From positions 1-35,435 of IMG/VR virus record IMGVR_UViG_3300037285_000195: 35,435 nt of DNA; one strand, written 5' to 3'. Source of the DNA: a virus. The notes beneath the pieces are model-generated. The model was not told the DNA's origin, did no database searches, and saw only the letters and a list, made by a program, of their open reading frames with translations. Shown here piece by piece: positions 2,727 through 30,569 of the stretch (position 1 is the stretch's first letter; every line of letters starts with the position of its first letter). Position numbers and translations under genes: made by a program.

Positions 2727-4241
2727 TTATGCGTTTACGCGGCTGGCGAAGTCCACCAGGTACCGGTCTGTGATGCGCTGGCGCAACAGCAGGTTTTCCA
2801 GCGGCGGCACTGGGGTGTAGTCGTAGTCGATGTACAGTTTGCCGGCCTTTAGCGTGTCTTTGGTGTTGGCTACGTCATCGAACCATGCGCTGGCATCGAT
2901 AATCAGGCCCAGGGCTTTCAGCTCGCGGAACTTGGCGTTGATGCCTTCGATGATGTCTTTCGCAAGCGACGGGTGCATGGGTTTGTCGACGGCCCACATG
3001 TGCGCCTCTGCAATCGTGTCTGCCAGTATTTGCGCTGTGCGGGTGTAGTTCTCGAACTGGAACAGCGGGTCGGAACTGCAGGTGCGTGAGCCCCAGAAGC
3101 GGAAGCCGTCGCGCTGCACCAGGGTGGTTACTTCGTTGGCGTTCAGCAGCCCTGCGTCGGTGTTGGGGTCTTGCAGATCCCAGTGCACATCTTTGTTGAT
3201 ACCGGTCACGCCGTTCACGGCCACGTTAGACAGGGTTTTATGCCAGCCTACCTGTTGATCGATCTTGGCGCGCAATCCCATAGCGCGCGCTACAGCGAAG
3301 GCGGTGGAGGTGGATTCGGTGTTTACGTCAAACGCCAAGAAATCTGGCCAGATCAGCATCAGCTCGCGGGCACCATAGCTATTGCGATACAAGATGGCGT
3401 CTTCGATGACTTCGCAGCCGTGGCAGCTGGCGTACACGAACGCGCGCAACTTCTGAGCCATTGCGACGGCTTCAGCGGTTACGGCTGGCGTGTCCAGGCC
3501 TGGTGCACCGATGATGCGGGGTTTTACGCCCAGGTTCTGTTCAGCAGCCAGCAGCGCTTTCAGGCCGGTCTTCTTGCCCTGGGCGGTGACGGTTCCGATG
3601 ACGTTGGCGGTGGTCTCGCTTTCGGTGGCTCCCTGCTCTACCCGAACTACCACAACGGGGGTGTTGGCCTGGTCTGCAATGGCATCCAGTGCAGCCGGCA
3701 ATGTGCCGGTGGTGCCAGCCTTGCCGATTGCGTCAAAGACGTTTGTTACCAGAACGGGGGTGTTCAGCGGGAAGGCTTCGTTCTTGCCGCCCGACAGCGC
3801 GGCATAGTCAGCCCCGCCAACTACGCCGTCACCGCTGGCGCCGCCTGCAAGTGATGCGGCAACCAGTGCAGAAGCGTCTGGGCTAACGTTTACGGCCGTT
3901 ACGACTTGGGATGCGGTGCTGGTAACAGCCGCTGATGCGCTGGTTGCCAGGCTTACAGTAATTTCATTTCCCAAAGCAGTAACTTTTAGTGTTGCAGAAG
4001 ACTTTGCAGGGTCGACAAAGCGCACGCGGCGGGTGTTGCCGATGGCCCCTGGGTTTGCGGCTGTGAATAAAATATCGGCATTGTCAGCGACAGCCCGAAT
4101 GGTGGCTGATGCCTTTAAGCCTGCTGACGCTTCGGGCGCGGTGGCCACAAGGCCGATAATGGCGGTTGCAACGGTACGAATGGTGCGAGTGCCTTCGTTG
4201 ATTTCGAGCACTCGAACACCGTGGTGGTATTGATCGGGCAT
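2727..4241 (-). CDS. FI: Contractile tail sheath gpFI with an inserted domain
   Basis: This is a 504-residue contractile tail sheath. Residues 1-40 ([17 protein letters not shown]) and about 156-504 ([51 protein letters not shown]) match P2 FI closely. P2 FI is about 396 residues. The extra length is one block at residues 41-155, rich in Ala, Thr, Ser and Val with a [10 protein letters not shown] motif, sitting exactly where P2 passes directly from residue ~38 into the PLN strand. The block resembles a beta-rich add-on domain on the outer sheath surface (inference). The first 127 bases overlap the 3' end of the DGR reverse transcriptase frame. GGAGG lies just before the ATG. Confidence 0.95.
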
Positions 4242-7370: not shown

Positions 7371-8249
7371 TTACTGTTGCATCAGGTGCGCAACAAAGCG
7401 CACGCGAACGGAATCGGCCGAACCGCCCAGGTAAACCCGGAAAGTGTTGCTTGCGCGGTCTCCGGCTTCGTGCTTCAGGGTTGGCTTTTCGCCACCCAAA
7501 TAGTCAACAACGTCCAGTGCCAGGTGGTAATGGCTGCCGCCCATAACTTTTTTGAAGTCCTTTTGCTCAAACGCCGGCGATGTGTGGACAGATGGCCACT
7601 CCGGCTCGGTGCGCGCCACGCTAGTAATCGTTACGTCTTCTAACTCTGGGGAAGTGGTGCCGGTACTTCCGGCTGGAATCGAAAGCTTCGCCAGTACCAG
7701 GGCGTTATCTGGCGCACCTTCGTCCAAGTTCGTGACACCCAGCTGGACTTTGCCACTGACGATGGTTAAATAGGCTTCTGCGGTTGCAGACTCGGCACTG
7801 GAGTTGCTGGGCACGCTGGCCGCGTTATCTTGTGCGCTCACCGGCATTTCCCGGCCGCCCATAAAACACACGCCAGAGGCAATATTCAGGTTGCGGTTTG
7901 CGGTTGCTGACGCTGCAATGCCGCAGCCTTTTTTTACGCCTCGGTTTGTCAGCAAAAACTCGCCTTCTTGGTGGCGAACCGTCTGCTGGCGATCCATTTC
8001 CTTGTTCAGTAATCCTACTTCGGACGCTGCGCGCTCTACCGCTGACCAGAGCGCGTTTTGCCCGTCTGTGCCTACGGCTTCCAGGTCTTTTTGCGCCGCA
8101 GCAAGCTGCTGCTTGAGCCATTCGGTGCGGTTGCCAAGCTGTTTTGCCTGGATGTTACTGATACCGTCCGGGCCGCCTACAACGGGATCTTCCGGTTCGA
8201 TTTGATAAACGCCGGCCACCCACGCTGGGGTGATGTTCAGGTTTGCCAT
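7371..8249 (-). CDS. Tail fibre protein (gpH-like)
   Basis: This 292-residue protein has an N-terminal segment (PVVGGPDGISNIQAKQLGNR, about residues 22-41) seen in many P2-type and other tail-fibre proteins, where the start of the fibre attaches to the baseplate. A short helical region follows (EWLKQQLAAAQKDLEAVG) and then a Ser/Thr/Gly/Ala-rich beta region. It is much shorter than P2 gpH (about 669) and lacks an obvious receptor-binding tip, consistent with the separate DGR target supplying it (inference). It lies between the 147-residue tail protein and the 107-residue gene. Confidence 0.8.
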   Translation of the reverse strand: MANLNITPAWVAGVYQIEPEDPVVGGPDGISNIQAKQLGNRTEWLKQQLAAAQKDLEAVGTDGQNALWSAVERAASEVGLLNKEMDRQQTVRHQEGEFLLTNRGVKKGCGIAASATANRNLNIASGVCFMGGREMPVSAQDNAASVPSNSSAESATAEAYLTIVSGKVQLGVTNLDEGAPDNALVLAKLSIPAGSTGTTSPELEDVTITSVARTEPEWPSVHTSPAFEQKDFKKVMGGSHYHLALDVVDYLGGEKPTLKHEAGDRASNTFRVYLGGSADSVRVRFVAHLMQQ

Positions 8250-17695: not shown

Positions 17696-19459
17696 ATGGA
17701 TAAAACAGTTGAATCGGATTACAGAGAGCACTTCGTCGAAGCCCGGACCTTGTATTGGTTGGGATGGCGTGCCGTGCGCATCTGTGAGCGCCTGGGCATA
17801 AGCCAGCAGCTGTTCAACAACTGGAAAAAACGCTTTGAATGGGACAAAAGCTCGCCGATTCAGCGGGTCGAGAGCTCTATTGAATCGCGTATGGTTCAGT
17901 TGGTTTTCAAAGATGAAAAAGAAGGTAAGGACTTCAAGGAAATTGACCTTCTGGGCCGGCAGATAGAGCGACTGGCGCGGGTAAACAAGTACGAGACGAC
18001 CAGGCGCGAATCAGATCTAAACCCTAATATCCTTGAAAGTAGCCGGGCGCCACGGAAATCGAAAAACGACATTGGCGAAGAAGGCCTGGAGCTGATCACC
18101 ACGGCTTTCAATGAATCGCTATTCGACTATCAGCACACATGGAAAGTGGCGGGGCTAACCCATCGCATTCGAAACATTCTTAAATCCCGGCAGATCGGCG
18201 CCACCTGGTACTTTGCCCGGGAAGCAATCGTTGATGCTTTTCACACTGGGAAAAACAAGATATTCCTGAGCGCGTCGAAGGCCCAGGCGCACGTTTTCAG
18301 GCAGTACATCGTGCAGTTCATCAAAGACACCTGCGATGTTGAACTGAAAGGCGACCCGCTCATTCTGCCGAACGGCGCCACCCTGTATTTTCTCGGTACC
18401 AACGTGCGCACGGCACAGAGTTACCATGGCGATCTGTTCATGGATGAGTACTTCTGGATCCACGACTTCCAGCAGTTCCGGAAAGTGGCCAGCGGCATGG
18501 CCATGCATAAGAAGTGGAGCCAGACCTACATTTCCACGCCATCGGCGGTCACCCACGATGCCTACCCGTTCTGGACTGGCGAGCTGTTCAATAAGCGCCG
18601 GGCGAAAGACAAACGGGTAATTGTTGAAACCTCGCACGCTGCACTGGCCAACGGCATGGCCTGCCCAGATGGACAATGGCGGCAGATCGTGACCGTTGAA
18701 GACGCGATGGCCGGAGGTTGTGATCTTTTCGACATAGAACAGCTGAGCATGGAATATTCGCCAGACGAATACGCCAACCTGCTGATGTGCCAGTTTGTCG
18801 ACGACACCCACGCTGTATTCCCGTTGGCAAAATTGCAGCCGTGCATGGTCGACAGCTGGATTGAATGGCGGGATTTGAAGCCCTACACCGACAGGCCGCT
18901 GGGTGATAGTCCGGTATGGATTGGTTACGACCCATCGGGGGCTGGAGAAGACGGAGATGGCGCGGGGCTGGCTATTATTTCCCCGTCGCATTCCAACAGT
19001 AAACCGCACCGCGTAATAGAAAAGCTTCGATTGCGGGGCCTTGATTACGAACAGCAGGCTGATGAGATCCGGAAGCTAACCTTCCGGTATAACGTCGAAT
19101 TCATTGGCATTGATGTGACCGGCCTGGGTGAAGCGGTGGCCGAATTAGTGGAGAAGTTCTTCCCGGGCGTTACCAGGTACCAGTATTCGCTGGATGTGAA
19201 AGCCAGGCTGGTCATCAAAACCCAGAACATCATCGACCGCGGCCGGCTACAGTTCGACGCTGGCGACACCGCGATCGCCCAGAGTTTCATGGCTATTCGC
19301 CGTGTAATGACAGATTCCCAGAAACACATAACCTACGCTGCCGGTCGCCGTGGCGACACCGGGCATTCGGACATTGCCTGGGCAATTATGCATGCCCTAG
19401 CGAATGAACCGCTTGAAGGCCCGGCAAAGCATGGCGGCAGCATGATGGAGATTTATTGA
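17696..19459 (+). CDS. P: Terminase large subunit (ATPase/nuclease) gpP
   Basis: This 587-residue protein (P2 gpP is about 590) drives DNA packaging. An N-terminal HTH-like region (WLGWRAVRICERLGISQQLF) precedes the ATPase, with a Walker A-type LKSRQIGATW (162-171) and Walker B DLFMDE (246-251). The C-terminal nuclease has GYDPSGAGEDGDG and IGIDVTGLGEAVAELVEKFF. No ribosome binding site is visible before the ATG. Its stop overlaps the portal start as TGATG. Transcription is divergent from O. Confidence 0.96.
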   Translation: MDKTVESDYREHFVEARTLYWLGWRAVRICERLGISQQLFNNWKKRFEWDKSSPIQRVESSIESRMVQLVFKDEKEGKDFKEIDLLGRQIERLARVNKYETTRRESDLNPNILESSRAPRKSKNDIGEEGLELITTAFNESLFDYQHTWKVAGLTHRIRNILKSRQIGATWYFAREAIVDAFHTGKNKIFLSASKAQAHVFRQYIVQFIKDTCDVELKGDPLILPNGATLYFLGTNVRTAQSYHGDLFMDEYFWIHDFQQFRKVASGMAMHKKWSQTYISTPSAVTHDAYPFWTGELFNKRRAKDKRVIVETSHAALANGMACPDGQWRQIVTVEDAMAGGCDLFDIEQLSMEYSPDEYANLLMCQFVDDTHAVFPLAKLQPCMVDSWIEWRDLKPYTDRPLGDSPVWIGYDPSGAGEDGDGAGLAIISPSHSNSKPHRVIEKLRLRGLDYEQQADEIRKLTFRYNVEFIGIDVTGLGEAVAELVEKFFPGVTRYQYSLDVKARLVIKTQNIIDRGRLQFDAGDTAIAQSFMAIRRVMTDSQKHITYAAGRRGDTGHSDIAWAIMHALANEPLEGPAKHGGSMMEIY

Positions 19460-20445
19460 TGAGCAACGGCAAGTTCGAAGCGTTCACATTCGGTGAACCC
19501 ACGCCAGTGATGGATCGGTATGAAATGCTGTACACCGGCTGCTGGGCAGCGGGACAGGATTATTACGAACCACCGGTTGACCTGGGCGCACTGGCAAAAT
19601 CATATCGTGCCACCGCACACCACGGCAGCGCGTTGCAGGTTAAACGGAATATCCTGGTGAAATCCTTCCAGCCAACGAAGTACCTAAGCCGGCAGGACTT
19701 TTCGCGTATGGCGCTGGATTACCTGGTGTTCGGTAACCTCTACGGCGAGATGATTACCAATCGGCTTGGTGGTCTGGTAAAGATAAAACCGGTTTTGGCC
19801 AAGTACTGCCGGCGCGGAATCAAACCAGACACTTATTGGTGGGTGCACGGCTGGCTGCAGGCAGAAGAGTTTGCAGCGGGCAGTATCATCCACCTGATGG
19901 AACCCGACCTGGACCAGGAACTTTATGGCGTGCCCGATTATATTGGCTCGCTGCAGTCTGCCTGGCTGAACGAAAGCGCCACACTATTCCGTCGCAAGTA
20001 TTACAACAACGGCAGCCACGCCGGGTTCATCATGTACATGACCGACGCGGCACAGCAGCAGGGTGACATCGATGAGCTGCGCACCGCATTACGCAACAGC
20101 AAAGGCCCGGGCAACTTCAAAAACCTGTTTATGTATGCCCCGAACGGGAAAAAGGATGGCTTGCAAGTCATACCGGTTAGTGAGGTGGCCGCGAAGGATG
20201 AGTTCTGGAGCATCAAGAACGCAACGCGTGACGACCAGCTGGCAGGCCACCGCGTGCCGCCGCAGCTGATGGGCATTATTCCCACCAACACCAGCGGGTT
20301 CGGTGATGCAGAAAAGGCGGCGCGAGTATTTGCCGCCAACGAACTGGAGCCGCTGCAGGAGCGCATGCTGGAGATGAACGACATCGCCGGCAAGGAGGTT
20401 CTGAAGTTCAAGCCGTATTCCCTGGGCGAGCCAGTCACGCCCTAG
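19459..20445 (+). CDS. Q: Portal protein gpQ
   Basis: This 328-residue protein (P2 gpQ is about 344) forms the dodecameric portal vertex. Conserved segments are PPVDLGALAKSYRATAHHGS, LVFGNLYGEMITNRLG, DYIGSLQSAWLNESATLFRR, YYNNGSHAGFIMYMTDAAQQ and LAGHRVPPQLMGIIP. It is translationally coupled to P (TGATG at 19457-19461), which decides the ATG at 19459. A strong terminator follows, so PQ is a two-gene unit. Confidence 0.96.
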   Translation: MSNGKFEAFTFGEPTPVMDRYEMLYTGCWAAGQDYYEPPVDLGALAKSYRATAHHGSALQVKRNILVKSFQPTKYLSRQDFSRMALDYLVFGNLYGEMITNRLGGLVKIKPVLAKYCRRGIKPDTYWWVHGWLQAEEFAAGSIIHLMEPDLDQELYGVPDYIGSLQSAWLNESATLFRRKYYNNGSHAGFIMYMTDAAQQQGDIDELRTALRNSKGPGNFKNLFMYAPNGKKDGLQVIPVSEVAAKDEFWSIKNATRDDQLAGHRVPPQLMGIIPTNTSGFGDAEKAARVFAANELEPLQERMLEMNDIAGKEVLKFKPYSLGEPVTP

Positions 20446-20467
20446 CCTCCACCACGCCAGACTTAAC

Positions 20468-20494
20468 AGCCCGCCATTGCGCGGGCTTTTTTTC
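20468..20494 (+). terminator. Rho-independent terminator after portal
   Basis: The stem AGCCCGC/GCGGGCT has a 6-nt loop and is followed by eight T residues. It lies 23 bp after the Q stop. Confidence 0.9.
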
Positions 20495-20560: not shown

Positions 20561-20682
20561 TCTTGTATGCACTCCTGCCTTAATCCACACGGTATTTACA
20601 CGCTCCAACGGAGGCCTAGAGGGTGACGCAGACTGATATATCAGCTTTATGTTCTGTGGCAGCAGGGGGGCTTCGGAAAAGC

Positions 20683-20938
20683 GTAACAAGCGTAACAAGG
20701 GGAAATAATGCCCTGCAGGCCGCACCATTGCTCACTCTCCCTGTTACAAAAAAACGTAACACGGAGTAACAAAAACGTAACAGCATTGATTATAAAGGGT
20801 TTTTTATTTTTAAAAGTTACGTTCATAAAGTGTAACAGCGTTACGTGTTCGTTACAGATTACTTGCCACTACTAACGATTATAGGTAATTGATATATATA
20901 GATAATAATAATAGTGTTACATGTGTTACGTTTGTTAC
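20683..20938. other. Probable replication origin: GTAACA/TGTTAC iteron cluster
   Basis: Thirteen copies of GTAAC or its complement GTTAC lie in 256 bp. GTAAC starts at 20683, 20692, 20756, 20766, 20777 and 20832. GTTAC starts at 20743, 20816, 20840, 20851, 20916, 20925 and 20934. Chance predicts about one copy in this length. Most extend to GTAACA or TGTTAC. The left side is mainly one orientation and the right side the other, flanking AT-rich stretches (20786-20816 and 20876-20914). P4 origins have similar iterons (GGTGAACA type) bound by the alpha primase-helicase; this genome has an alpha-like protein. Confidence 0.65.
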
Positions 20939-21249
20939 TTCTTTCCGAACCCCCCCAGCATTCTGAGGGAAACCGCCCAACGCGCCTGCACGCACACGCG
21001 TAAACCATCAGTGTGTCTCGTCTCACAATAAACGGATTCACGCGATTAACGCTGGCGCCTACGTTTCAGTGGAGAGCAGTGGTGGTGCCGAAGTACTTCA
21101 GATCTCACGTAGGAGCGCGCCCCGACAGAGTATTCGTAGGTTATTGATTCTAAAAGGACTGGTTTGAGCAGAAAGAGGTGTTAAACAGGATTAAGATTGC
21201 AGTGCAGGTGATTCATTTGGCGTCACAAAAGGCTATCAGATGGAGCACA
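20939..21249. other. Gene-free stretch between iterons and attP core
   Basis: No credible coding frame is seen. A CCCGACA copy at 21121-21127 matches the triple repeat on the other side of the att core and could be the opposite-arm integrase site. The short frames here have neither ribosome binding sites nor recognisable content. Confidence 0.55.
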
Positions 21250-21293
21250 CTGCAACTCCGTTAACGCCGGTTCGATTCCGACCCGCGCCTCCA
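21250..21293 (+). other. attP: attP core: 3' half of a tRNA-Cys gene
   Basis: From the anticodon loop (CTGCAAC, anticodon GCA) to the 3' end, the sequence reads as tRNA-Cys: T loop GGTTCGATTCC and 3' end CGCGCCTCCA with discriminator T, typical of Cys. Bases 5' of the anticodon loop do not pair as an anticodon stem, so this is not a full tRNA. Integrases often use a tRNA segment from anticodon loop to 3' end, restoring the host gene on insertion. Location beside the integrase module supports attP. Confidence 0.8.
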
Positions 21294-21417: not shown

Positions 21418-22221
21418 TCAGGTTTGAGTAAGAGGCACGCCCTCAAATACCCAGCATCGAACCAGGTGGCCTTTGGTACTCCTAACGCTTCTGCTGGCTC
21501 CCAGGAACTGAGGGTCTCGACTCTGCCGTAGCGCGTGGGCCAGCTGCATCCTTGGCGGCAGGTCCAGGCCCCGCTGTTTCGCTACCTTGCAGACTTCAAC
21601 CAGGCTAATGGCAATGGTGTCGGGCTTTGCGGAGTGGTTGAGGTGCTGGGAGTCCTTTCCTGTGGTCAGTGCTTCGTATACACCCCAGAAGTCGTCAACC
21701 ATTGACGGTACTTCCGGCGCGTCGCTTCCAATGGCGCTGATTGGTGGTGGCTGAACGCCCAGCATGCGGCTGACGATGGTTAATTGATCGTGCAGATACC
21801 GGCGCGCATCCGGGTTGGTTTCTTTCCTCAGGGCCTGCAGCAACGTCAATGAATTGCGAGTCAAAGTAGACAGACGCGGAACATTCTGCGGCTTGCTGTA
21901 GCTACCGGTTTTCCTAATCGAAGGCAGCACTTCGTGAGTGATCCATCGCTTGAATCTTTTGGCCTCGGGCTTCCTTGATTTCAAAATCAGTGAATACAGC
22001 CCGAACTCGTTAATGAGATTCGTTGGCCTGTGGCTACCCTCGATAGTATCGAGGGTAGATTCATCTTCATCCAGTGATCGAATCACGTCAGAAACGTTTC
22101 CGATTTCGAGCGCCCGGCAAATATCGGCAGCTACAAACCAGGCTTCGCCCTGGCGATCGACCGTTCTTATCGGCGAGTCTTCAAAATCAAAAACAATTGG
22201 AAAGTCCGCGTTGTCGCTCAT
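21418..22221 (-). CDS. Bro-N domain protein with a primase-type C-terminal domain
   Basis: This 267-residue protein has an N-terminal Bro-N/antirepressor-type domain (about 10-105: GEAWFVAADICRALEIGNVS, NEFGLYSLILKSRKPEAKRF, WITHEVLPSIRKTGSY). The C-terminal part (174-261) resembles the last ~95 residues of this phage's own primase-helicase: FW, LNH, IAISL, LPP, SR...FLGASRSVRS and VRCWVFE recur in order. In P4 alpha the C-terminus binds origin iterons, so this protein may bind the iteron cluster near its gene and modulate replication or act as an antirepressor (inference). GGAG lies 8 bp before the ATG. Confidence 0.85.
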   Translation of the reverse strand: MSDNADFPIVFDFEDSPIRTVDRQGEAWFVAADICRALEIGNVSDVIRSLDEDESTLDTIEGSHRPTNLINEFGLYSLILKSRKPEAKRFKRWITHEVLPSIRKTGSYSKPQNVPRLSTLTRNSLTLLQALRKETNPDARRYLHDQLTIVSRMLGVQPPPISAIGSDAPEVPSMVDDFWGVYEALTTGKDSQHLNHSAKPDTIAISLVEVCKVAKQRGLDLPPRMQLAHALRQSRDPQFLGASRSVRSTKGHLVRCWVFEGVPLTQT

Positions 22222-22755: not shown

Positions 22756-24000
22756 TTACTCACCAACATCATTGCGCAGTGATTTAAGCGTGGATCGGCT
22801 GCGCTCTGGTGGTCGAATCAGCCGGTAGTGGTTCCGCATGGCTTCGGTTTCGTGGCCACCTTTGTTGTTCTCGCCCTGGGACACGAACTCGTCGGTTAAG
22901 CCTTTCTTGCGCAAATCTCGCAGCTGGTACTGGCCTTTGTAGCCGGCTGAATCACAAGCTTCTGCCCAACAGCTCTGCATGAACCGATGCTTCACCGGCT
23001 GGGTGCGGCTGCGCATGTCGAAGTAGCGGGGATACACCATCAGATACGGCGAAATAATGCCCTTCTCACGCTTCCAGGTGCGGAACCAATCAACCAGCTG
23101 GCGCAGTTCGGTGTTCATTTCCAGCAGAATACCAACGCCAGTTTTGTGCCGGGAGAAGGTGATCTCCCCAAATTCGCCACCATCATCGTTTATCTGGCTT
23201 TCTTTCAGGCCGAAAACATCAATTGGCTGTTGGCTCATCATGTAAATAAGGTCGCATATTTTCGCGCGCCAGGTGCCGTCGTATGTTCGGCGGTTCAGCT
23301 TGTGTGCCAGAAGGTGCTCAGTGATGGCCACGTAAACATCATCGGGTATCAGCACTTCGCGCTTTGGTTCGACGGCTTTCTGGATGTCGGGAATGGGGTT
23401 TCTGTCGATCACGCCATCTTGGATGGCATGGCCAAATACCCTGGATAACGTATTGCGCAGGCCGTTGTAGTGAGTGGGCTTGGTTAACCAGGGCGATAGG
23501 AGTTTGCGAACCTTGCGCAGGACGTGGGGATCGCACAGGAAGAACTGGCAATCGTCGCTGCCTGCCAGCTGCTGGGCGTCGGCTGCGTAATCGGTGCGGG
23601 TTGCCATGGCCACGGGCCGGCCTCGGTTGCGGCCGCGCTGGCTTAATACGTGGCACTCGTTCCAGGTAACACTGCCATCAGATAGTTGATGGCCAAGCAC
23701 CGTTGTGCGCCATTTTTCCAAGTAGGCCTTGAGGGTTATTCGTTTTATGGTTTCGGTAGATCTGGAAATGGCAAGGCTACCCGCTAACAGATCTGCCTCG
23801 AAATCGCCGCCGTCCTGCTCCCACATCTGCTGCAATATTCCCCAGCGCCGGATGGCCTGCTGCTTATCGCGGGTTTGTAGGCTGCCTTGCTTGCGGGTTT
23901 TGGGATGGCGCAAGTAAAAAACGCCACTGCGGGCGTCTATGTACAGGCCAGGGTAGCGCTGAAGCCACTCCTGACCTTGTTTCCTTTGGTTTTTGGCCAT
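22756..24000 (-). CDS. int: Tyrosine recombinase integrase (atypical active site)
   Basis: This 414-residue integrase has an arm-binding N-terminal part (FYLRHPKTRKQGSLQTRD), a core-binding SAM-like domain (~85-205) and a catalytic domain. K286 (SRHKTG), R364 (RDLRKK), H383 and Y392 (GHETEAMRNHY) are visible. The first catalytic Arg, normally in a TGQRP-type motif, aligns with Gln258 (MMSQQPIDVF), and the His of HxLR aligns with Arg361. The ATG at 24000 follows the excisionase stop (TAACATG); a longer in-frame extension lies within the excisionase and is rejected. The attP core is 1.5 kb downstream. Confidence 0.92.
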   Translation of the reverse strand: MAKNQRKQGQEWLQRYPGLYIDARSGVFYLRHPKTRKQGSLQTRDKQQAIRRWGILQQMWEQDGGDFEADLLAGSLAISRSTETIKRITLKAYLEKWRTTVLGHQLSDGSVTWNECHVLSQRGRNRGRPVAMATRTDYAADAQQLAGSDDCQFFLCDPHVLRKVRKLLSPWLTKPTHYNGLRNTLSRVFGHAIQDGVIDRNPIPDIQKAVEPKREVLIPDDVYVAITEHLLAHKLNRRTYDGTWRAKICDLIYMMSQQPIDVFGLKESQINDDGGEFGEITFSRHKTGVGILLEMNTELRQLVDWFRTWKREKGIISPYLMVYPRYFDMRSRTQPVKHRFMQSCWAEACDSAGYKGQYQLRDLRKKGLTDEFVSQGENNKGGHETEAMRNHYRLIRPPERSRSTLKSLRNDVGE

Positions 24001-24001
24001 G

Positions 24002-24241
24002 TTACTGCAGCTGCTGCGCGAGATTTTGAAGGAAACCCAGCTCCTGGTTGCTCTCAGGCAATCCTTTGAGCCGGCGTTCCATTGTCTCGAAATACGTGTC
24101 CAGGTCAATTCGCCACCGTCGACCATCACGGAAAGCTCCCGGGATGTCCGGACACCGGTTGCGAATGGACACCAGCGAAGGTGGCTGTTTGTCGTCGCAG
24201 TACACCACATCGATGAACGTTTGAAGGCTGACAGGTCTCAT
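24002..24241 (-). CDS. Excisionase-like DNA-binding protein
   Basis: This 79-residue protein begins MRPVSLQTFIDVVYCDDKQP. It has a winged-helix/MerR-type pattern (LVSIRNRCPDIPGAFRDGRR, WRIDLDTYFETMERRL) typical of phage excisionases and AlpA-like proteins. It sits 1 bp before the integrase start, so the pair is co-translated. It probably directs excision with Int and might also act on lysogeny promoters, as P2 Cox does (inference). Its start overlaps the previous gene by 4 bp. Confidence 0.8.
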   Translation of the reverse strand: MRPVSLQTFIDVVYCDDKQPPSLVSIRNRCPDIPGAFRDGRRWRIDLDTYFETMERRLKGLPESNQELGFLQNLAQQLQ

Positions 24242-26577: not shown

Positions 26578-26991
26578 TCAGGCTTTGCCTTTACGGCAGA
26601 TTTCCACAGCGGCTTCCAGGGATTCCGCCTCTCCCCACCAGGTGGGGCGATCCCATGCGCCGCCGTCCAGGCACTGCACCCAGTAATGAGTCTGATCGCC
26701 GTTCTGCCTGGTGATGATGTAGGGCCGGTACCACCAGAAACGGTGACTTTCGGGCCGCTCGTCGTTTGGGGTGACTGAAAATCCATCGGGTAAGATTGGG
26801 TCCAGCGCGTACCCTTCAATCACGGTAAGCACCTGCTTCCGTGCTATTGCTTCGGCCACATTCTCTTTGAGCGCTGTGGTCATCGACTCTTCCAGAATCT
26901 CAAGCTCTGCCAGAGTCATCTCGCCGGTGCTCTGCATTAGCACGTCAAGAATGTCCAGGGTCTGTTGAAGGTGACTGCTGTTCGTGTCCAT
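26578..26991 (-). CDS. Early-operon protein of unknown function
   Basis: This 137-residue protein has a helical N-terminus (LQQTLDILDVLMQSTGEMTL, ELEILEESMTTALKENVAEA). An aromatic beta-like region follows (SHRFWWYRPYIITRQNGDQT, HYWVQCLDGGAWDRPTWWG). The many Trp and Tyr residues suggest a small ligand-binding domain. TGGAGAT lies 5 bp before the ATG. The family is not recognised. Confidence 0.72.
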   Translation of the reverse strand: MDTNSSHLQQTLDILDVLMQSTGEMTLAELEILEESMTTALKENVAEAIARKQVLTVIEGYALDPILPDGFSVTPNDERPESHRFWWYRPYIITRQNGDQTHYWVQCLDGGAWDRPTWWGEAESLEAAVEICRKGKA

Positions 26992-27502: not shown

Positions 27503-30214
27503 TTAGGCTTCGGCTTCAAAAATCCAGCAACGAACGGTGGCGCTGCCCAGGGCATTTCCTTCGCGGCGGAGGACGCTGCGCACGGTTCGGCTCGAATCAA
27601 TAAATTTTCGGCTGCGGCTGGTTTTCAGGTGCCGCTTCAATTCGGTGATGGGCGGAATGCGCAGCTTTGCTTCGGCGCACACTTGCTCGAAGTGCTTAAG
27701 GTTCACGGCAATCAGGCTGTCGTCGTCGTAGTGGTTCAGGGTGGCGGTGCTGCTCTGGCCTTCGATGTAGTCGAACGCTTCCCAGAATTCCTGAACCATG
27801 GGGTGGTCGGCGTTCACGGCGGTTTGCCGCTCGATGGCCATGCCCTGCACCATTTCACGGGCGGGTTCCAGGTAACTTTCGGGCAGCAGCTGCAGGCCGT
27901 CTGGGCCCAGGCAGTCCAGCAGCGCCATAATCTGGCTGTGGTTTTTGGCAATCCGGTGAATGCGTATGTCTGGCAACTCGGAAAGCGCTTTTTCATAGAT
28001 AGGTGACCGCTCGCAGATAATCCGCATCAGCGAGGCTTCCGCCGTGGCCGCTTGCAGAATAAAGCCGCTCACCTGTTCCATGGGTGTGCGCTCCAGACGT
28101 TCGGCCAGGGCCTTGGTTGTTTCGCTGTGGCCCTGGCGCGTTACGTTCAGGTGCACAATCCGCTGCAGCACGGCATCGCTTGCCGACACCTGGGCGTTCT
28201 GGCTGATCACCACGGCGCCGCGGAACGGTGGCTCGTAGGTGTCGTTGCCGCCGTTCTTCATGCCACGGCTGCGAACAGACCGGCCGTTGTAGGCTGTTTT
28301 CAGTTCGTCCCAATCAAACTGGCGCTGCTTTCCGCCGGCGCCGTCCTGGTCCCGATCGGACTCGATCAGCACTACCGGCAAGTTGGACACCTGGGCGAAG
28401 TTACGAGCCCGGGCTGCCAGGGTGGCTTTGCTGGGGTCGAAGCCTTCGTAATCCTGCCGGCCAACCAGCTTCCACAGGAATTCAATCAGCGTGGATTTAC
28501 CGGACCCGGCTTCGCCCACTATCTCGATGAACGGGAAAGACTTGTGCGCCCGTCGGATCTGCTCGGCAAACAGGCTGCCCAGCCAGTACGCCAGGGCAAT
28601 AACGCCTTTAGGGCCAAAACAGTTGGCCAAGTCCAATGCCCAGTCGTGATGGTAATCGGCACGGTTGTTGTTGATGTTCAGCGCCACCGACTCAGACAGC
28701 GTTTTCACGCTCATGCGGCCGATGTCGTAATAGTCCTCGTCATTCAGTTCGTAGATGCTGCCGTGGCTTACGGCCAACTCTGGGAACACCCAGGTTTCGT
28801 GCTCTTTGCTATAGCCAATGAAGTCGATGGTCTCTACGGTTTTAATGCCGCTGATCTGCTGTTTCAGCAGCCGGTCTAGCTGCTGGCTGCTGCCGGTCCA
28901 TACCGCACCAGGTGCAACGCTTAGCAGGCGCTTTTTGAATTCGCTGGCGCTGGCCAGCTGGCCGCCACTGAAGGTGTTTTTTACCGGCCGGCCATCGTGG
29001 GGGAATTCCACGCGAGTGTAGTACCAGCTTTCATCCGTCACTTTGTTGGCCAGGTAATACAAAAAACTGACGTGGCTGTTGGCGATCTCAGATACCGCGT
29101 TGCACTGGTCCAGCGCTCTGTCGCGGATTTCGCGATCGGTTAAAGCCTCACTGGATTCTTCCAGGTCATTTACGGCCTTCTGAAATTCGTCCATGTTTAG
29201 GCGGAACCAGAACAGGCGGTTGCCGTAATCGAATGGGAAGTCGCGCTTGCCAGTGTGGTTAAAAATGTGAGTGGCTTTTTCGCCAGCGCTTCGTGAGATA
29301 ACCAGGTCACCCTGGTGCCGGGGCTCTTTTGTCAGCAGTTCGCCGTCTTCACTGACCAGTTCGCCGCGCTGCCAGGCGTCGTTCCAGTCGCGCTTTTCTT
29401 TGCCCACCGGCGCGATAACCGCGGCGCCGATCAGCCAGCCCGCGGCGCGGGAAATGCGGGCGAACTTCTGAACGTAACGAACACCAGCGCTGTCGCCGTC
29501 TAGCGCCCAGATCAAACGCGGGGGTTTATTGCCAGCGGCTTCGCAGAGGCCAGAGACCTGTTCCAGAAGCTTTTCCGGGTAGTTGTTGCAGCTGAACGCG
29601 GCAACGGCAGCAATGCCGGCGTGGTACAACGCGATGGCGTCGAATATGCCTTCCACAATCCACAGCTCTGACACCTGTGCAAGATCCAGCCCGGGCGGTA
29701 CCCATGCCTGGCCACGGAAGTTGGCGCCTTTGTTGAAGTGAGCTTTCATCTTGCCGAAGCGGTCCGGCTTATCGATGATGCGTTCCCAGTAGTCGGTACC
29801 GTTTATAGCAAAGCGCACGGTGGCCGATGAAATGTTGCGGTGGTAATCCCAGTAGGTTTCCTGGCTGTACCAGCCTTGAACCTTGTCCAGAGCAAAGCCG
29901 CGGCCGTGCTCCATGTACGCGTCTGCTACTTCGGTACCGCTGGCCTTTTCCCCAGGCTTTAAGTCGCGCTTTGCAAAGCGTTCTGTCCAGCTGTCGAACA
30001 GCTCCGGAAACAATTGCTTTACGTGGTGAGAATCGCCGCATTTCGATTCCCGCCCGCAGCGGATCATCCAGGGCGCATCCAGCGAGGTGAACGCCTCTTT
30101 TTTTCCGCAGCTTGGGCACAGTAACCGGCGCACGTATTTCGCGTCGGTGCTTTCTTTGCCGCCAAAATCGCTTTTTAGCCGGAAAATGATGTCCGACCGC
30201 AGGTGGTCTTGCAT
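27503..30214 (-). CDS. TOPRIM primase-helicase replication protein (P4 alpha-like)
   Basis: This 903-residue replication protein has a zinc finger at C33, C36, C53 and C59 (CPSCGKKEAF..., CGRESKC). A TOPRIM primase domain follows, with E188 (WIVEGIFDAI) and DGDSAG (239-244). An SF3/DnaB-type ATPase has Walker A GEAGSGKST (567-575) and the downstream VVLIESDRDQDG. Residues 806-903 form a C-terminal domain also present in the Bro-N protein, probably iteron-binding. The ATG at 30214 follows CCGGAGCAACCA; a longer in-frame start overlapping the previous gene is rejected. P2 uses gpA rolling-circle replication; no gpA is seen, so replication here is probably P4-like. Confidence 0.93.
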   Translation of the reverse strand: MQDHLRSDIIFRLKSDFGGKESTDAKYVRRLLCPSCGKKEAFTSLDAPWMIRCGRESKCGDSHHVKQLFPELFDSWTERFAKRDLKPGEKASGTEVADAYMEHGRGFALDKVQGWYSQETYWDYHRNISSATVRFAINGTDYWERIIDKPDRFGKMKAHFNKGANFRGQAWVPPGLDLAQVSELWIVEGIFDAIALYHAGIAAVAAFSCNNYPEKLLEQVSGLCEAAGNKPPRLIWALDGDSAGVRYVQKFARISRAAGWLIGAAVIAPVGKEKRDWNDAWQRGELVSEDGELLTKEPRHQGDLVISRSAGEKATHIFNHTGKRDFPFDYGNRLFWFRLNMDEFQKAVNDLEESSEALTDREIRDRALDQCNAVSEIANSHVSFLYYLANKVTDESWYYTRVEFPHDGRPVKNTFSGGQLASASEFKKRLLSVAPGAVWTGSSQQLDRLLKQQISGIKTVETIDFIGYSKEHETWVFPELAVSHGSIYELNDEDYYDIGRMSVKTLSESVALNINNNRADYHHDWALDLANCFGPKGVIALAYWLGSLFAEQIRRAHKSFPFIEIVGEAGSGKSTLIEFLWKLVGRQDYEGFDPSKATLAARARNFAQVSNLPVVLIESDRDQDGAGGKQRQFDWDELKTAYNGRSVRSRGMKNGGNDTYEPPFRGAVVISQNAQVSASDAVLQRIVHLNVTRQGHSETTKALAERLERTPMEQVSGFILQAATAEASLMRIICERSPIYEKALSELPDIRIHRIAKNHSQIMALLDCLGPDGLQLLPESYLEPAREMVQGMAIERQTAVNADHPMVQEFWEAFDYIEGQSSTATLNHYDDDSLIAVNLKHFEQVCAEAKLRIPPITELKRHLKTSRSRKFIDSSRTVRSVLRREGNALGSATVRCWIFEAEA

Positions 30215-30227
30215 TGGTTGCTCCGGA

Positions 30228-30569
30228 TCAGGCTTGGATGTGCGAAACGGCGCTGGCGCTGTCGCGCAGCTGGAGCAGTTCACGGATTGAAAAAACCGAT
30301 GTTCTGCCGGTGCCGGTGTCGTGAATAACCACGGCGTTTCCGGTGGTGTGGCTGACATCGATGTAAGCCGCAGGCAGGCCCACGCACTCAAGCTCTGCCC
30401 ATACCTTTGTAGCCAGCAGTGCCGCGCGCCGGCGGCTGCAGTTGAATTCTTCCATCAGGCTGAACACTACTTTCTCAACGCACTCCCTGGCGCTGTGGCT
30501 GTTCTTGCGCAGGGCCGTCAACTGGCTGTAAGTGGCGTCAGTCATGCTTTGTTTGGCGATAGCGGTCAT
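30228..30569 (-). CDS. Early protein of unknown function upstream of primase
   Basis: This 113-residue protein begins MTAIAKQSMTDATYSQLTAL and has ARECVEKVVFSLMEEFNCSR, ALLATKVWAELECVGLPAAY and a C-terminal SVFSIRELLQLRD. The layout of helix, Cys-containing middle and beta end suggests a small soluble regulator. I chose the ATG at 30569 with AGGA 7 bp upstream; a longer frame would overlap the Ogr gene. It lies 13 bp before the primase gene. Confidence 0.72.
   Translation of the reverse strand: MTAIAKQSMTDATYSQLTALRKNSHSARECVEKVVFSLMEEFNCSRRRAALLATKVWAELECVGLPAAYIDVSHTTGNAVVIHDTGTGRTSVFSIRELLQLRDSASAVSHIQA

Follow-up and report, generated by a model that had tools for sequence, protein, structure and literature searches.

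A dense array of short repeats in a P2-like phage is very probably the origin of replication of that phage, to be read by the primase-helicase that the same genome encodes. The genome is an IMG/VR record of 35,435 bp, analysed at its full length and referred to here as the window; it carries terminase, portal and scaffold genes of its own and is a P2-like phage, not a satellite. A sequence-only reading had already suggested a probable replication origin here, and comparison with relatives argues for it: the array tracks one type of initiator, is absent from control phages with gpA, keeps its geometry when the repeat word changes and, in phages of the phi3 type, adjoins the initiator gene. Literature searches, covering mainly non-subscription journals, returned no iteron origin in P2-like phages.

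The array and its surroundings

Within the array GTAAC occurs six times (20683, 20692, 20756, 20766, 20777 and 20832) and GTTAC seven times (20743, 20816, 20840, 20851, 20916, 20925 and 20934), and 10 of the 13 sites conform to the hexamer GTAACA/TGTTAC. A PWM scan recovered the identical 13 sites, in the orientation order ++-+++-+-+---. The earlier count of thirteen 5-mers in 256 bp of AT-rich DNA, in mixed orientation, is therefore exact, and it lies far beyond chance in simulations. Among 100 Markov-1 shuffles of the window, the biggest 5-mer cluster per 256 bp held 9 copies (mean 6.8) versus the 13 observed, GTAAC reached a maximum of 7 and never 13 in 5,000 Markov-1 copies of the array, and the largest 6-mer clusters in 300 bp held 4-6 copies over 40 simulations versus the 10 observed. 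The AT fraction is 0.65 in the array versus 0.44 in the window, and a cluster scan of the window shows this single array standing out. GC skew, proposed as a check, shows no switch at the array and is uninformative.

The array is intergenic, with the portal gene on one side and, ~330 bp away on the other, an attP core of the tRNA-Cys type (Table 1). Placement between portal and attP was thus correctly read from the sequence; the accompanying claim that the array lies beside cos was not confirmed by alignment, since the P2 and Smp131 cos sequences score no better near the array (12.5 and 11.5) than against random stretches of the window (null means 12.4 and 11.7). A short minus-strand ORF over the left end of the array has no Pfam match. 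Just past the portal gene, at 20465-20490, a GC-rich hairpin is followed by a T-run and is likely the portal terminator.

A 36-nt inverted repeat (83%), overlooked in the sequence-only reading, frames the array, and each of its arms combines TTCGGAAAA with two sites 9 bp apart. The array and its framing repeat are kept in relatives, with small indels. The motif CGG(G)AAA, frequently with a G-rich run, lies immediately outside the outermost sites, both in the arms of the window and at the ends of other arrays. Across 19 arrays, P4 crr included, it is present at 23 of 38 ends versus 1.6% of random 48-bp stretches, and in all 19 the AT content exceeds that of the genome or record to which the array belongs.

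Table 1. Positions of the array, its parts and the genes discussed, in window coordinates
Feature	Position	Strand	Basis or content
Portal protein, adjoining the array on its upstream side	19456..20445	+	P2 Q-like
Left arm of framing inverted repeat	20662..20697	+	G-run followed by TTCGGAAAA and a tandem pair of sites at 9-bp spacing
Iteron array, proposed replication origin (oriV-like)	20683..20938	.	13 GTAAC-core sites, both orientations
AT-rich inter-site gap, candidate unwinding element	20783..20814	.	Sequence
Second AT-rich inter-site gap, candidate unwinding element	20857..20914	.	Sequence
Right arm of framing inverted repeat	20924..20959	-	Mirrors left arm
attP core	21269..21293	+	25 bp identical to tRNA-Cys(gca) 3' end, Marinobacter oulmenensis (L118)
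Bro-N antirepressor-like protein; C-terminus a second copy of the initiator C-terminal domain	21418..22221	-	Domain matches, beside attP
Integrase-like protein	22756..24210	-	Weak phrog_1 match
Proposed initiator (phrog_1139), joining a TOPRIM primase, an SF3/Cch-like AAA+ helicase and a C-terminal domain	27503..30214	-	Profile matches, model
Initiator C-terminal domain, predicted winged-helix-like, proposed iteron-binding	27506..27844	-	Alignment + model

Occurrence and geometry of the array in relatives

Arrays were sought by an unbiased clustered-word search of complete relatives and further records, which mostly returned one dominating array per genome. Among the 27 records bearing phrog_1139, 22 have one array each, of 250-315 bp (G000, G001, G006, G012, G014, G019, G021, G025, G029, G030, G031, and the named phages W01 and W03-W12). 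The array of G014 was recognised by eye and with a PWM, and Microcystis phage Mae-JY29 (W09) has a weak word count and clear mirrored ends. Array-negative are G004, G008, G013 (where the sequence ends 3 bp past the portal ORF), G017 (1,036 bp past it) and Bacillus phage ZY1 (W02, L061), in which the primase is present and no array was found across the whole record. Four of these five records thus stop 3-1,036 bp past the portal ORF. ZY1 (OR820920) is a Peduoviridae phage; the match of its primase to the window's is about as good as the one given by a Halomonas phage, which it also resembles in gene order, and its 'Bacillus' host label looks doubtful.

The P2-type controls P2, 186, HP1 and Fels-2 all carry Phage_GPA (PF05840) and none carries phrog_1139, while Phage_GPA was found in none of the 27 phrog_1139 records, window included. 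No comparable array was found in these four controls, with cluster scores of at most 9.2, and the scan does recover the annotated ori and crr iterons of P4. Scored by a single 6- or 7-mer, the weakest true arrays reach ~10-12, near the controls, so the score alone separates poorly and the distinction is completed by the mirrored 9-bp pairs. A detector built to find double 9-bp repeats in inverted arrangement picked up most arrays and also GC-rich false positives; it missed G003, G006, G014, G029, G030, L060 and L065, and was dropped from the counts. A scan of the portal side, 3 kb downstream, was significant in 10 of 46 records, a low yield because other lineages place the array elsewhere and because degenerate arrays such as that of G014 escape exact 6-mers. 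The 80 genome_contigs loci cover ±10 kb around the primase and seldom extend as far as the portal; 3 of them (L117, L129 and L133) have a recognisable array.

The repeat word varies by phage (GTAACA, AGGTAATT, CGTCACA, CCGGAACA, TGGAAGG and others). It is AAAGGTAA in Halomonas phage 4908, AATTACC in Dobby, AGGTAAC in Smp131, CGTCACA in ESSI2, CTGACAG in UFJF_PfPro, GGAACA in phi3 and phita81A/2, CCTTCCA in PaBSM-2607-JFK and GTTAC-based in 2F_1. In phi3, phita81A/2 and PaBSM the array lies directly 3' of the primase gene. In UFJF_PfPro, which has the CTGACAG array, ACGTAACA forms a further small cluster close to int (L065, 1771-2071).

Conservation of the 6-mer had been proposed as a check on the origin reading; the word itself differs between phages, and it is the layout, spacing and orientation of the sites that are conserved. 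This was measured with per-array PWMs of 9-16 sites each, in 17 arrays after exclusion of G030, where one outer pair is missing. On average a fraction of 0.634 of the inner sites agreed in both orientation and position (±3 bp), compared with 0.442 under random placement (sd 0.009, maximum 0.469 of 200), and pairs of arrays with unlike words (77 of 136) still matched at 0.612 versus a null of 0.443.

Covariation of word and protein was assessed after removal of near-identical primases (helicase part at least 90%), which left 18 arrays. Word similarity correlated at 0.55 with helicase identity and at 0.54 with C-terminal-domain identity; the partial rho values of helicase versus C-terminal domain were 0.26 and 0.23 (both p ~0.03), and being so similar they do not single out the C-terminal domain from the helicase. 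Extraction of this domain was overlong for 2F1 (231 aa) and L060 (119 aa), which adds noise to the comparison. The correlation of word with helicase persisted at a partial rho of 0.45 (p 0.001) given terminase P, 0.44 given portal Q and 0.53 given capsid N.

The proposed initiator and a second carrier of its C-terminal domain

The gene proposed to encode the initiator lies 6.5 kb from the array. Its ORF (27503-30391, minus strand, 962 aa) matches phrog_1139, 'DNA primase', over its whole length and also matches TOPRIM models; the ATG at codon 60 (30214) is the likely start, because the alignment with most relatives begins near residue 60. A search of the primase sequence against the PDB gave a best match of E 0.68 only. 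The model of the middle, helicase part (pLDDT 79) is closest to SCCmec Cch (5dgk, E 2e-7), followed by the SF3 helicases pox D5/E5, AAV Rep and the SaPI5 primase-helicase. The C-terminal 113 residues, modelled from 36 sequences (pLDDT 80), have the order H-H-E-H-H-E-E, a predicted fold that we read as winged-helix-like. Structural matches to this domain are weak (TcpK Z 5.6, STY4665 Z 5.6, the Cch C-terminus Z 5.0 over 73 residues with rmsd 2.6, RepE 3.8), Pfam holds no such domain, and its profile found nothing in the PDB up to E 10. In the Smp131 record (L063, 25400-28091) the primase is divided between two reading frames that overlap, by a frameshift in the record or by a real lesion.

The Bro-N protein beside attP, whose C-terminus is a further copy of this domain, is possibly a second origin-binding protein. 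The same fusion of Bro-N and primase C-terminal domain occurs in G012, G013, G014, L045 and L197, whereas in L048 and L121 the domain is joined to other N-termini; a Bro-N alignment scan returned 80 loci, one of which, L197, has the fused domain. In six proteins the domain copy is 19-36% identical to the domain of its own primase, and five of the six are nearer to the primase of another phage (own versus best identity 34/39% in the window, 33/36 in G014, 33/35 in G012, 19/33 in G013 and 30/34 in L048); in L045 the own primase is the best match, at 36%. The Bro-N copy and the primase domain possibly share one target; the copies are mostly not closest to their own primase, and so these identities give no indication that the two read the same word.

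Known origins and alternative roles of the array

The sequence-only reading had likened the array to the iterons that P4 alpha recognises with its C-terminal domain. The DNA side of this parallel stood up: P4 ori and crr are likewise AT-rich and contain short iterons that face both ways (type 1 iterons annotated as TGTTCACC), and crr, just 3' of alpha as the phi3-type arrays are 3' of their primase genes, starts with CGAAA followed by a 9-bp tandem pair. P4 has two regions, ori and crr; in the window the cluster scan showed one array standing out, and the geometry of crr compared with the arrays (0.17-0.57) is null-like beyond the 9-bp pair. On the protein side, alpha likewise unites a TOPRIM primase and an SF3-type helicase in one initiator and matches phrog_1139 at positions 27-311, the primase part (E 4e-23). 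No relationship could be detected between its origin-binding domain and the C-terminal domain of the window initiator (hhalign probability 0.2, Foldseek E at least 0.36, VIA Z at most 5.6); no P4 entry appears among the fold matches of that domain, an absence that proves nothing. Since no link between the C-terminal domains was found, and since the D5_N and Pox_D5 domains of alpha are unmatched in the window primase, we do not file the window initiator in the P4-alpha family. By analogy, then, the array would work like a P4 or PICI origin, and its initiator is not of the P4-alpha family over the C-terminal half.

In Gram-negative PICI origins two iteron sets flank an AT-rich region, as described in PMC6092414. 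PICI and SaPI origins resemble the arrays in having element-specific iteron sets around AT-rich DNA and a related helicase fold (SaPI5), and resemble the phi3-type phages in that the origin lies 3' of the initiator gene. They belong to satellites with the origin immediately 3' of rep, whereas the window is a whole P2-like phage with its array remote from the initiator. SCCmec, source of the best structural match to the helicase model, is another kind of mobile element, and the sequence identity to Cch is ~12%. With P2 and 186 the window shares the virion module and the gene order around the portal; unlike them it lacks gpA, annotated there as nicking a site within its own gene, and has an intergenic array.

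If the array is an origin, the C-terminal domain of the primase-helicase would bind the GTAAC-core sites, and the outer site pairs with 9-bp spacing, together with the inner sites, would position the initiator around the AT-rich gaps. The SF3/Cch-like helicase part may then melt and enter the DNA at these gaps, and the TOPRIM primase part would lay primers. Replication of this kind, presumably of the theta type, would replace the rolling circle of P2. A theta origin would yield circular monomers, the form of DNA that P2 and P4 package.

A wider proposal, offered tentatively and rather unlikely to hold as a whole, is that P2-like phages exchange two replication modules, gpA-driven rolling circle and a satellite-type iteron origin of fixed geometry whose word drifts freely along with the initiator. 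In the window's subgroup a copy of the initiator's DNA-binding domain would also have passed to a Bro-N antirepressor, a second origin-binding protein throttling or switching replication at the array. If the origin reading is right, an origin missing from the annotation of the records consulted would be placed in a large group of P2-like phages (Citexvirus, Simpcentumvirus, Evevirus, Phitrevirus and the Halomonas and Marinobacter phages), and a replication strategy would be common to helper-type phages and satellites. With a single geometry common to numerous natural word-initiator combinations, these phages would then form a test set for how initiators read DNA, and for the competition of phages and satellites over similar origins.

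Three other roles for the repeats were weighed against an origin. Terminase-binding, cosB-like repeats that guide the small terminase subunit to cos would suit the position downstream of the portal in the window's lineage, where a P2-type cos is expected, as well as the Smp131 array, ~190 bp from the cos ends published in PMC3931495. Word similarity also retains a partial correlation with terminase P given helicase, weaker than that with helicase (0.35, p 0.006). However, the portals of gpA phages without an array are as similar to the window's (P2 55%, 186 55%, Fels-2 62%) as those of array-bearing phages (Smp131 52%, Dobby 56%, 2F_1 49%), so the array is not tied to the packaging genes, and in phi3-type phages it lies 3' of the primase gene, away from the terminase and portal genes. 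We regard this role as very unlikely. An array of operators bound by a repressor (the Bro-N protein or some other), with no part in replication, is suggested by the primase-type C-terminal domain of the neighbouring Bro-N protein, but the array follows the primase, and among the 27 records only G000, G012 and G014 (and, separately, G013) have non-primase proteins with the domain, which are thus not a general binder; an operator is highly unlikely.

The proximity of the attP core, and the use of repeated arm sites by tyrosine integrases, would fit arm sites for the integrase or an excisionase, a role that we consider very improbable. Thirteen sites over 256 bp speak against it, and arrays exist far from int (in phi3, int at 2887-4056 and the array at 7402-7718). 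The location directly 3' of the primase gene in phi3-type phages disfavours both an integrase and a terminase role and agrees with the origin reading. ESSI2 (L064) has, besides its own array, a separate cluster of GTCCACA directly after int (26741-26958), and GTCCACA also clusters at the annotated Int arms of P2.
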